A stretch of DNA of 19,899 nt from Lentisphaeria bacterium. GTDB lineage: Bacteria; Verrucomicrobiota; Lentisphaeria; Oligosphaerales; PUNB01. Shown here piece after piece: positions 10,975 through 16,617 of this stretch; the stretch's first letter is position 1; each line of letters starts with the position of its first letter. Both the position numbers and the translations under genes were made by a program. The notes under the pieces are model-generated. The model ran no database searches. It was not told the DNA's origin and worked only from the letters and a program-made list of their open reading frames with translations. The stretch is taken from contig SLNM01000087.1 of assembly GCA_007133055.1 (NCBI GenBank), forward strand, positions 1-19,899, read 5' to 3'.

Positions 10975-11082
10975 AATTAACTTTTCCTTATTTTTGTTTC
11001 TGTGTTGAACATACTTCTTAAACTTCTGCAACCTTCCCGTTTTCAGCGTCGCCCCATGGGTCGCCGCCCGCCAGTTTGAAGA

Positions 11083-11134
11083 CTCCAACATAATGCGGTT
11101 TTGATACTATGCAAGCCGGGAAGGAAATTCCGAA
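11083..11134. repeat. Outer direct repeat, copy 1 (52 bp)
   Basis: This 52-bp stretch recurs at 12718-12769 in the same orientation with 50 of 52 bases identical; the only differences are the two bases at 11108-11109. It begins CTCCAACATAATGCGG and ends GGAAGGAAATTCCGAA. The two copies bound 1.58 kb that includes the DUF4160/DUF2442 genes. What the repeat is I do not know. Confidence 0.9.
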
Positions 11135-11217
11135 TAGATAAGTTGCTATGACCACTCCATCAAACCATCTTATGGTAGATCGACACCGATTCCTCTGCCT
11201 GCTCCCGCGTGGGTTGC

Positions 11218-11230
11218 GGGGTCTGACCCC
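11218..11230. repeat. Palindrome GGGGTCTGACCCC
   Basis: Palindrome with 6-bp arms and a single central base, followed by TTAAAAA. A related half, AAGGGGTCAAATTT, occurs at about 9104-9117 at the end of the CDF gene. Motifs of this form are common remnants around REP-associated transposases in environmental genomes (family knowledge); no transposase is visible here. Confidence 0.5.
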
Positions 11231-11242
11231 TTAAAAACTTCA

Positions 11243-11301
11243 CCTGACCACATCCGAAGTGGTCAGGCCGGGGACGACCGTATTACCGGCGGTTCGCGGC
11301 G
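11243..11301. repeat. Inner composite repeat, copy 1
   Basis: The palindrome CCTGACCAC/GTGGTCAGG (11243-11251 and 11259-11267) is joined directly to the unit GGCCGGGGACGACCGT and then ATTACCGGCGGTTCGCGG. The same order and orientation recur at 12335-12391. Additional copies of the second unit, without the palindrome, are at 11306-11321 and 11381-11396, the latter also followed by ATTACTGGCGGTTTGCGG. Confidence 0.85.
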
Positions 11302-11336
11302 GCACGGCCGGGGACGACCGTGCATACCCATTGTAC

Positions 11337-11358
11337 CTACGGGCGTCCCCGCCCGTAG
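11337..11358. other. Hairpin between repeat units
   Basis: CTACGGGC (11337-11344) and GCCCGTAG (11351-11358) form a perfect 8-bp stem with a 6-base GTCCCC loop. It lies between the second and third copies of the GGCCGGGGACGACCGT unit and looks like part of the same REP-like cluster. Confidence 0.6.
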
Positions 11359-11524
11359 AACGCACCCCGAACACCTATACGGCCGGGGACGACCGTATTA
11401 CTGGCGGTTTGCGGCCGCCGCGTCCCTGCAGGCATGTGTTTTTGTGCGAAGCCTCAACTTGCAACCCCGTAAATCCGCTATAGATTGTTTTTGTTCAAAA
11501 CGGAAACCGATTGTGGAGATTGCT

Positions 11525-11797
11525 ATGCCGACCATATCGATGTTCTACGGGGTTCTGATCAGGATGTTTTTCCATGACACGGACAAGCATCATATTCCGC
11601 ACATCCATGCAGACTACCAAGGGAAAGTGGCAGTATATTCCATACAAGATGGCGCAGTGTTGGCGGGAGGTCTTCCGCCAAATAAACATAAACTTGTAGT
11701 GGCTTGGATTGAGATTCACCAGGAAGACCTGATGGCCGACTGGGAACTGGCCGTCAACGGCCAGCAGCCACTCCCAATCCGAGGGTTGGATCAATGA
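11525..11797 (+). CDS. DUF4160 protein, first gene of a two-gene module
   Basis: Small 90-residue protein that begins MPTISMFYGVLIRMF and contains HHIPHIHADYQGK (about 22-34), the diagnostic core of the DUF4160 family. Biochemical function is unknown to me. The family is commonly found next to DUF2442, as here, and the pair behaves genomically like a toxin-antitoxin module (small, overlapping, accessory location), but which partner would be the toxin is not established from this sequence. The His-rich HxPHIHA core could bind metal or nucleic acid; that is inference. GGAG lies six bases before the ATG. The stop codon overlaps the next gene's start (ATGA), showing translational coupling. The pair lies between nested direct repeats. 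Confidence 0.85.
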   Translation: MPTISMFYGVLIRMFFHDTDKHHIPHIHADYQGKVAVYSIQDGAVLAGGLPPNKHKLVVAWIEIHQEDLMADWELAVNGQQPLPIRGLDQ

Positions 11798-12060
11798 TGA
11801 TAACTGAAGTGAAAGCTACATCTCCGGGACGGCTGGCAATTGTCTCCGATGACGGTCGTCATGGGACATTTGATGTGCGTCCCTATTTCGATTCCCCGGC
11901 CTTTCGCCCATTGACCGAATGGTCGGAGTTTTCCCGCGTTCGCAACGGAGGTTACTTCATCGAATGGAGCTGCGGCGCGGACTTGTCAGCAGACACAATC
12001 GAGGCCAAGTGGCAAGTCAGGCAAGAACAGCAAGCCCAACCAATGGATGCTGGGCTATAA
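11794..12060 (+). CDS. DUF2442 protein, second gene of a two-gene module
   Basis: Small 88-residue protein. It has the DUF2442 pattern: an N-terminal strand with LAIVSDDGRHGTFDVRPYFD (about 13-32), a central stretch FRPLTEWSEFSRVR (about 37-50) and the C-terminal WSCGADLSADTIEAKW (about 58-73). DUF2442 proteins are small and often paired with DUF4160 or with predicted toxin-antitoxin partners; no reaction is known to me. Its ATG overlaps the DUF4160 stop by four bases, so the two are one transcript and are translationally coupled. No transmembrane segment or signal peptide. It may act as the antitoxin or regulatory partner, which is inference from pairing alone. Confidence 0.83.
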   Translation: MMITEVKATSPGRLAIVSDDGRHGTFDVRPYFDSPAFRPLTEWSEFSRVRNGGYFIEWSCGADLSADTIEAKWQVRQEQQAQPMDAGL

Positions 12061-12152
12061 AAGGCACGCTCAATCCGCCGTGCCGTCCCCGTCCCCGTCC
12101 CCGCGCCTGGGTTTGCATTGGGGACGTACGTTTACAAGCCATTTATTGTCTT

Positions 12153-12222
12153 CGGGGTCTGCGTAGGTTTAGTTCTGTATCCCCGGGGTCTGTGTATCCC
12201 CGGGGTCTGCGTAGGTTTAGTT
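12153..12222. repeat. 22-bp direct repeat pair with a partial third copy
   Basis: The 22-base unit starting CGGGGTCTGCGTAGG and ending TTTAGTT occurs at 12153-12174 and 12201-12222. Between them a shortened version, CGGGGTCTGTGTATCCC (12184-12200), gives a third partial unit. Spacing suggests local duplication by slippage. Confidence 0.75.
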
Positions 12223-12334
12223 GTTGTTAGGAATACACTTAAGTTTTTCGCTCCTGCTGGAGAATTTTCTTAGAGTGAATATCCTTCTGCCTGACGATTC
12301 GCGCTAAGCGTGTCAAAGGGCAATACTCCGCTCA

Positions 12335-12391
12335 CCTGACCACTTCGGAAGTGGTCAGGCAGGACGACCGTATTACCGACGGTTCGCGGCC
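12335..12391. repeat. Inner composite repeat, copy 2
   Basis: A palindrome with 12-bp perfect arms, CCTGACCACTTC (12335-12346) and GAAGTGGTCAGG (12348-12359), is followed by AGGACGACCGT, ATTACCGACGG and TTCGCGG. This is the same palindrome-plus-unit composite as at 11243-11301, in the same orientation, with a few differences. Confidence 0.85.
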
Positions 12392-12623
12392 GCTCCAAGC
12401 GGCTACGCCATGTTTTTGCGCTTTCTTTAGCTATAATAACGAGGCAGACCCGGATGCGGCTTATGCCTAGTCCGGGCTATCGGTTGACAACAACTATAAT
12501 AAAATTATTGCAACTGCCAATGAAGGCAAATGATCCTAATTCCCCAGTTTCCCCTTTCTTTGCGTGATTTCCCAAGGGTTTGCTCTGCCCCGAACACAGA
12601 AATTTTCCTGTTTCCTGTTTCAC

Positions 12624-12651
12624 TTGACATCCACCGGTGCAGGACTATCTT
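12624..12651 (+). promoter_or_regulatory. Weak sigma70-type promoter candidate
   Basis: TTGACA (12624-12629), a 16-base spacer, then TATCTT (12646-12651). The -35 is perfect and the -10 matches four of six consensus bases. It would read through the second outer repeat toward the ATPase fragment. Confidence 0.3.
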
Positions 12652-12717
12652 TCCTTTGTTGATCAGCGTTCCGGCCATTCTTCCATCGCCCCTCCGCCTC
12701 CGCCGTTTGTTTGATGG

Positions 12718-12769
12718 CTCCAACATAATGCGGTTTTGATACCGTGCAAGCCGGGAAGGAAATTCCGAA
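12718..12769. repeat. Outer direct repeat, copy 2 (52 bp)
   Basis: Second copy of the 52-bp repeat at 11083-11134, with two mismatches (12743-12744). It ends 54 bases before the first codon of the truncated ATPase. Confidence 0.9.
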
Positions 12770-12823
12770 GGGCCAGTCAGAGAATGGTAAGAGATAGACG
12801 ACGCTTATTCAAGGGAAATCCCG

Positions 12824-13324
12824 ATGGTGACGGCGGTAACCCTGGCTTTGGCATTGGCCTTCGAACCGTCCGAAGTCCAGGTTATGCAGCGTCCTCCCAA
12901 GCCGCCGGAGCAGCCGATTCTCACTAGTTTCCTGATCTGGCGCGTAGTCCTGGTTTCGCTGGTCATAGGAGGTGCTGCTCTGGCCATGTTTCTACGCTAT
13001 CGGGACACGGTGGCGATCGAAACGGCGCGCTCGATCACCGTCAATACAATTGTCTGCGGCCAGATTTTCTATCTGTTAAGCACTCGTTTCTTCGAGCGCT
13101 CCTCGATTTCCCTGGACGGCATTCTGGGCAACCGGAAAGTTCTCCTGATGATCGGTGTGCTGGCTTTTCTCCAGGCGATCTTCACCTACTGGGAGCCGGG
13201 ACAAAGACTGTTCGGAACCGGCCCGGTAGAGCTGCGTCAGTGGCTGTGGATCGGGTTGGCGGGACTGGCCGTATTCGGCGTGGTGGAACTGGAAAAGGCG
13301 GTCTTTCGCTGGCGGCGCCGGTAA
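12824..13324 (+). pseudogene. C-terminal fragment of a P-type cation ATPase
   Basis: The 166-residue product matches only the C-terminal membrane part of a P2-type cation-transporting ATPase. It opens with MVTAVTLALALAFEP and then xVMQRPPKPPEQPIL, which in intact family members lies at the end of M6 and the following loop. Four hydrophobic segments follow (about 38-58, 69-88, 104-121 and 138-155), corresponding to M7-M10. The phosphorylation motif DKTGT, the ATP-binding domain and M1-M6 are absent; an in-frame stop lies at 12788-12790, so the rest is not upstream. AAGGGA eight bases before the ATG means the piece could still be translated. Intact relatives are about 900 residues. It starts 54 bp beyond the outer 52-bp repeat, suggesting loss by rearrangement. 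I treat it as a remnant, although an orphan four-helix protein is possible. Confidence 0.8.
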
Positions 13325-16103: not shown

Positions 16104-16617
16104 AGTGTCTCTCCGCCTATGTTGTTTGGTTGCTTGAATAAAAGATGACATGATCCGGCGGCTCTGAGAATGCGCCTTTCCCTGATTTCCGGCTGCTTTT
16201 CCGCTTAATTTTCAAGTTGTCGGCAAAACAGCATCCAGATTGCCGCCGGGAAGGGCGAAGTGAATATCCCTGGCAGGCGAGAGTTTCCGGAGATCGGACA
16301 GATCGGACAGATCGGACAGATCGGGCGGATCGGGCGGATCATACCGATCAGGCAAATCGGGTGAACCGGGCACAGGCCGCAGGCCGAGCGAGCAAGTAGT
16401 GGCGTTTGTTTTCCGACTCATCTAAAAGCACCTATGAGAAATTCTGTGTATGCTTCAAAAGAATCCCTGGAAACAGGAAGGCAGCCCGTGTCTGCAATAT
16501 ATTCGAAGAAATAAGGGTTTGCGAGGGCGAGTTTCAGTTGGTCGCGCAGGGTGGCATGGGGCTTTTTCGGACATATTGAAGGGAGACGGAGAAAAAGCAA
16601 TGAAAGGATGACAGACG
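16104..16617. other. Divergent intergenic region, 514 bp
   Basis: Control region between transaldolase (minus) and phosphoketolase (plus). No clear promoter could be assigned. It contains the 9-bp tandem repeat at 16292-16336. A minus-strand frame over 16418-16645 gives protein-like sequence but overlaps the phosphoketolase start. The length leaves room for regulator binding. Confidence 0.5.
16292..16336. repeat. 9-bp tandem repeat (5 units)
   Basis: Three units of GATCGGACA (16292-16318) are followed by two of GATCGGGCG (16319-16336), then degenerate GATC-containing units to about 16360. Read on the minus strand it would give a SDL/PDP amino acid repeat, but there is no supporting gene context. 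Confidence 0.9.

Follow-up and report, generated by a model that had tools for sequence, protein, structure and literature searches.

In the window analyzed here, a 19,899-nucleotide stretch of Lentisphaeria DNA (contig C322; the draft genome, G000, comprises 2.03 Mb in 384 contigs and is 68% complete), a two-gene toxin–antitoxin (TA) pair of the dhiTA type stands between two long direct repeats that are confined to this locus. Our best reading, which we hold at a little under an even chance, is that a bare dhiTA insertion came with a long target duplication and was later seeded with REP-like repeats. It draws on the locus confinement of the outer repeat, the enrichment of closely placed direct repeats (tight brackets) around dhiTA relatives, brackets made of host sequence at other loci, and a site in Nitrospira; against it stand the position of the window repeats outside the tight class, the weaker contrast at 700 and 1,000 bp, and the sparse brackets at order-level and plasmid loci. 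The travel of TA pairs without a linked recombinase is poorly explained, and host-sequence repeats around dhiTA hint that such a pair can enter a genome with no transposition enzyme of its own. The features of the locus are as follows.

11074–11134: left outer direct repeat, 61 bp, with no full copy elsewhere in the genomes searched
11240–11303, + strand: left inner composite, a 25-bp palindrome plus a GACGACCG... tail; a dispersed intergenic repeat
11300–11418: further dispersed stretch with many copies in the draft genome
11452–11520, + strand: upstream stretch, 91% identical to the 70 bp before a Fic gene (contig C358, locus L092, 1427–1496)
11525–11797, + strand: dhiT-like toxin gene (DUF4160, 90 aa; Pfam E 4.7e-23, above the curated cut-off)
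11794–12060, + strand: dhiA-like antitoxin gene (DUF2442, 88 aa; Pfam E 4.8e-12, above the curated cut-off)
12197–12334, + strand: element R1, dispersed, described by a 140-position sequence profile, with the tip GGGGTCTGCGTAGGTTTAGTT at 12202
12332–12393, + strand: right inner composite, the same dispersed repeat as 11240–11303
12709–12769: right outer direct repeat, 61 bp, matching the left copy at 57/61 positions
12818–13324, + strand: C-terminal remnant of a calcium P-type ATPase gene, its broken end 48 bp to the right of the right outer repeat

The two genes are co-directional and overlap by 4 bp. The preliminary description had likened them to a TA module, in agreement with the Pfam matches and with the activity of DhiT/DhiA as a type II TA system in Dickeya dadantii, whose toxin inhibits growth and whose antitoxin neutralizes it, and in Escherichia coli (PMC8198452, in the passages available); for Thermus, the available part of PMC12724237 gives plasmid-persistence and deletion data consistent with TA function of DUF4160/DUF2442. 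The window pair shares with these systems the order DUF4160 first, DUF2442 second, in adjacent or overlapping frames. It differs in that both proteins score below the NCBIfam cut-offs (DhiT, 89.2 of 100 bits; DhiA, 21.3 of 200 bits) and are thus homologues, not equivalogs, by that rule; the passages of the two papers at hand are silent on flanking direct repeats. All residues invariant in a 36-row DhiT alignment (D18, H22, H26, H28, W61, and W73) are kept, so the toxin looks intact, as does the dhiT–dhiA pair as a whole, and TA activity is predicted from family membership. A structure model of DhiT (pLDDT 84) finds no confident counterpart in the PDB, and that of DhiA resembles NE0471 (2auw, E 0.017); neither model settles an activity, and we set aside a toxin mechanism read from the fold. 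A consensus promoter scan of 11452–11520 was empty.

As the preliminary description had it, no transposase is visible: none of the seven ORFs between the outer repeats contains a transposase domain, the largest reaches at most 117 aa, and the five small ORFs other than dhiT and dhiA have zero Pfam matches. Terminal inverted repeats of the kind that bound a classical transposon are likewise missing, the outer repeats being direct. Beyond them, the ATPase remnant lies near a zupT-like gene and a gene for a DmeF-type CDF transporter.

The outer repeat had been described as a 52-bp element; this core is 50/52 identical, and the match extends to 61 nt in the same orientation with 4/61 positions differing. 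A chance match this good (57/61) in a 2.5 × 2.5 kb space has a negligible probability (∼5e-23). Long matches in the draft genome, 68% complete, are limited to these two sites. With the right copy as query against 98 genomes, the source genome included, no full copy was found among the 97 relatives; outside the locus the repeat is represented by pieces of at most 46 bp, with some match at E ≤ 1 in 65 of the 98 genomes. The exact 24-base core had zero matches in the genome_contigs and viral_contigs collections, which may omit the source genome and very near ones. Direct repeats thus flank the pair on both sides and, within the genome as assembled (68% complete), are not dispersed. The gaps to the genes are 390 and 648 bp, and still 211 and 402 bp once the dispersed stretches are subtracted; at 390 and 648 bp the repeats fall outside the tight class (within 300 bp).

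Several other origins of the outer repeat were considered and rejected. A minus-strand frame is open across both copies, and beyond these two copies its peptide gave weak, chance-level matches among the loci compared. Core motifs of an integron attC site were absent on inspection by eye, and a tRNA target is contradicted by zero tRNA genes in the window. Transfer on a plasmid or phage was also discarded: the segment DNA has zero plasmid matches, and none of the DhiT relatives from plasmids (28 records) or phages (3 records) reaches 60% identity. Among relatives that might display the site, the contig of the nearest with a close ZIP gene (G001) stops 202 bp upstream of that gene, and in G002 the calcium-ATPase match sits at contig edges.

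Under the favored insertion reading, a bare dhiTA unit without its own recombinase would enter the intergenic stretch between the zupT-like gene and the calcium-ATPase remains, leaving a 61-bp target duplication on either side, the present outer repeats. The most economical route would start from a short circle or fragment with the TA genes and a piece of the target, integrated by a single crossover (Campbell-type recombination) or by illegitimate insertion; addiction would then retain the pair at the site. At about even odds, we take the outer repeats to be such a duplication, aged by its four differences and since loaded with dispersed repeats. The model has a precedent in restriction-modification systems, for which insertion accompanied by a long target duplication has been described (Nobusato 2000 and Furuta 2010, via the review PMC3874152). 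There, too, the unit is of the addiction type, is unlinked to a mobile element, and is flanked by a direct duplication on the order of 100 bp; here, in contrast, the cargo is a two-gene TA pair, and the window is known from the occupied site alone. The dhiTA pattern looks like the restriction-modification insertion pattern with a TA cargo. No report of TA-pair insertion with long target duplication appeared among the titles and abstract openings of the open-license PMC papers listed.

To place the locus among its relatives, we scanned named genomes and confirmed at least 548 dhiTA relatives, of which the best 80 (61 to 84% identical), drawn from many phyla, were kept. A DUF2442-like tblastn match adjoins DhiT in 78 of these 80; partner ORFs called by script have the same start offset in 62/71, with none called at nine loci. 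DNA matches to the window segment never lie wholly outside genes (0/116), and the non-coding surroundings of the window pair recur at 0/80 loci; the relatives thus share the gene pair, not the window repeats.

Brackets, defined as direct repeats of ≥25 bp and ≥85% identity on both sides, were surveyed at the 68 of 80 loci with at least 600 bp on each side (12 loci were dropped), with 379 mock ORFs or ORF pairs from the same loci as the control. Tight brackets surround dhiTA at 9/68 loci vs 4/379 mock genes (Fisher 1.2e-5), and shifted sites in the same loci give an expectation of 0.47 at 300 bp; variable intergenic DNA probably harbors TA pairs more often than mock genes, which limits this control. 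The contrast is weaker within 700 bp (10/68 vs 13/379) and weak within 1,000 bp (12/68 vs 29/379, p 0.02). The enrichment also weakens with stricter subsets; host-type cases only, with Nitrospira collapsed to one, leave 4/67 vs 4/379 (p 0.02). Among the three single-ORF mock brackets listed, one itself belongs to DUF4160 and another is enclosed by a pair of dhiTA copies, so the control is strict, if anything. Brackets are sparse closer to home and on plasmids: a cruder check of same-order DUF4160 loci found any bracket at 1/16, not tight and on the same contig as L184, and L073 (order-level relative G004, Lentisphaerae bacterium RIFOXYA12_64_32) is identical to L184, so its bracket is not independent. 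Ten plasmid loci from the 28 records gave any bracket at three and a tight one at one, formed by multi-copy repeats.

These numbers bear on the chief alternative, coincidence in a repeat-rich, decaying stretch, in which dhiTA came by a separate route, the outer pair arose as an ordinary duplication in place, and the inner repeats count as dispersed elements. The dispersal of the inner repeats, the ATPase gene remnant in the same stretch, and the 13 mock ORFs bracketed within 700 bp are what such a history would leave. But the outer repeat is long, is found nowhere else, and brackets a TA pair, and tight brackets are enriched around dhiTA; we consider coincidence unlikely, if a serious contender.

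At several tightly bracketed loci the repeats are plainly host sequence. In L230, a 60-bp copy begins 2 bp after a radical-SAM/TRAM gene and is followed by 563 bp with dhiTA, the second copy, and a DUF3330 gene. In L202, a 115-bp piece of the 3′ end of a nuoF-like gene is repeated behind dhiTA; in L215, a 121-bp piece from close to the beginning of a PDDEXK_2 gene is repeated ahead of it; and in L175 and L183 the 3′ end of a DsbA-like gene (167 to 173 bp) is repeated behind it. The four host-type cases have 563 to 796 bp between the repeats and hold little beyond the two genes. The brackets of L208, which has a Y1_Tnp gene nearby, and of L212, where the repeat occurs a third time, look like dispersed repeats, not host targets; those of L164 and L166 are short and may be of either kind. 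In L228, a second DUF4160 ORF is bracketed by 68-bp direct repeats that are 96% identical (936–1682).

The DsbA-like site could be followed across 11 Nitrospira genomes, reached through dhiTA-relative loci and searched with the L175 region. A dsbA-like gene is present in eight. In three of these (G101, G103, and G104) it is followed by dhiTA with an orphan gene end; in G104 (L183, C131) dhiTA is in tandem, with 99% identity over 730 bp, each copy followed by a dsbA-like gene end. In G099 the same position holds a HicA gene and a partner ORF of 79 codons, again with an orphan gene end; the partner has no Pfam match, so that a HicB label would rest on position, and its full length speaks against a hicB remnant. 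G106 has the same kind of HicA pair behind its dsbA-like gene, the second gene end being absent from the fetched stretch. The gene has a single end, with neither dhiTA nor a hicA pair, in G098, G102, and G107. The orphan ends match the dsbA-like gene of their own genome at 76 to 86% identity, roughly the distance between the genes of different species, so duplication at insertion is not proven in Nitrospira and the second end may have come with donor DNA. Tentatively, and with the balance tipped against it, two-gene TA pairs may move as very small bare cargo through insertion with long target duplication, and the duplicated gene end may then serve as a re-usable slot in which unrelated pairs (dhiTA, a hicA pair) are swapped by homologous recombination. 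Host-sequence brackets, together with a Nitrospira gene end that holds differing TA pairs, make the question of travel testable by comparing, at base resolution, close genomes that have the pair with others that lack it.

The inner repeats have a different distribution. The preliminary description had reported a palindromic composite once per side in the same orientation, and both copies are present; both fold better than shuffles (DNA z −3.0 and −4.1). The palindrome occurs at six places in the draft genome with ≤3 mismatches, four of them outside the window (contigs C262, C358, C73, and C247), vs zero for a reversed-pattern control, and further copies of the composite, with serpin, Fic, and glycosidase genes among their neighbors, lie in C262 (two), C358, and, in part, C73. 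A search for relatives of the inner repeats and of the stretch at 11300–11418 scored 40 candidate places in the source genome. In the family-level relatives G001 and G002, stretches related to the inner repeats gave 11 and 6 matches; the nine order-level relatives searched had none. The outer repeat is thus confined to the locus and the inner one dispersed, and the two layers differ in origin. The symmetric nesting had been taken to suggest a segment acquired or duplicated as one unit, a view that fails with an inner repeat that also lies by serpin and glycosidase genes; because scatter across the genome had been named in advance as counting against a link to the module, the inner repeat is no cassette marker. 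What survives of the transposase-free mobile or addiction cassette is the TA family itself, its spread over many phyla, and bracketing above the mock level.

Element R1 belongs to the same dispersed layer, and a second tip of its type lies at 12154–12174. Across 59 genomes, under stricter filters, a sequence-only R1 model gave six matches at five places in G000, six at five in G001, and eight at seven in G002; weak matches (E 1e-4 to 0.05) occur in seven more genomes. R1 forms inverted pairs at G001:C246, G002:C188, and C265; pairs with GGGGTCTGCGTAG-type tips span L141 3015–3306, L147 3030–3382, and L090 681–1077, ∼290 to 400 bp overall. Such pairs are MITE-like, with no known transposase, and the inner palindromes and R1 together fit REP/MITE-like intergenic repeats. 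With the REP/RAYT-linked inverted-repeat elements described in PMC3733652, they share palindromic, dispersed, extragenic inner repeats and inverted R1 pairs; they differ in that the R1 tip or palindrome is found at 0/8 Y1_Tnp loci of the incomplete drafts G000 to G002, none of which thus holds a cognate RAYT flanked by the repeat. One Y1_Tnp locus (L085) contains a one-mismatch copy of the GGGGTCTGACCCC motif, which also sits at window position 11218. A structured-RNA reading was rejected, Rfam giving zero matches on the window and the outer repeats, upstream stretch, and R1 folding no better than shuffles. Under the insertion reading, the palindromes and R1 would form another layer, probably a later one, gathered in this non-coding stretch.

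Alternatively, the dispersed repeats could themselves be the vehicle, a partly conserved non-coding shell whose TA-type cargo is swapped by homologous recombination. Contig C358 carries the same element order around its Fic gene: composite (1603–1540), upstream stretch (1496–1427), fic, an R1-like tip (365–279), and part of the composite (178–141). Moreover, R1 stands at most ∼140 bp behind a TA-type gene at four of five places in the source genome: the window; C265, where a truncated DUF4160 ORF and a DUF2442 gene precede it; C247, where a BrnT-like pair (BrnT and CopG matches below the Pfam cut-offs) is followed by a reversed R1 and the palindrome; and C358. The fifth place, C213, is a fragment with no TA gene nearby in the stretch read. 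This association (p 0.03) is weak, as its counts were entered by hand after inspection. On the other side, R1 in G001 and G002 lies mostly beside ordinary genes, with a TA-like neighbor at no more than 2 of 12 places (called by hand, 11 fetched), R1 is reversed at C247, and the upstream stretch is common to two loci only, its one other site in 12 genomes searched being before the Fic gene of C358. We therefore regard a shell vehicle as distinctly improbable. As an observation in its own right, one ∼70-bp stretch immediately precedes both fic and dhiT, toxin-type genes unrelated to each other.

Least credible, and in our judgment very unlikely, is the remnant of a larger integrative element that lost its integrase and most genes and left the outer repeats as attachment sites: gene-3′-end duplications such as those in Nitrospira resemble the attachment sites of integrase-borne elements, but no integrase trace lies between the outer repeats, and from one host-type unit (563 to 796 bp) to the next the targets are unrelated and the repeat lengths differ, which leaves no shared attachment site.

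Elsewhere in the window, positions 1–126 form a tandem repeat of 7-bp CTGAMAC units, and positions 16291–16335 form another of 9-bp AGATCGGAC units.
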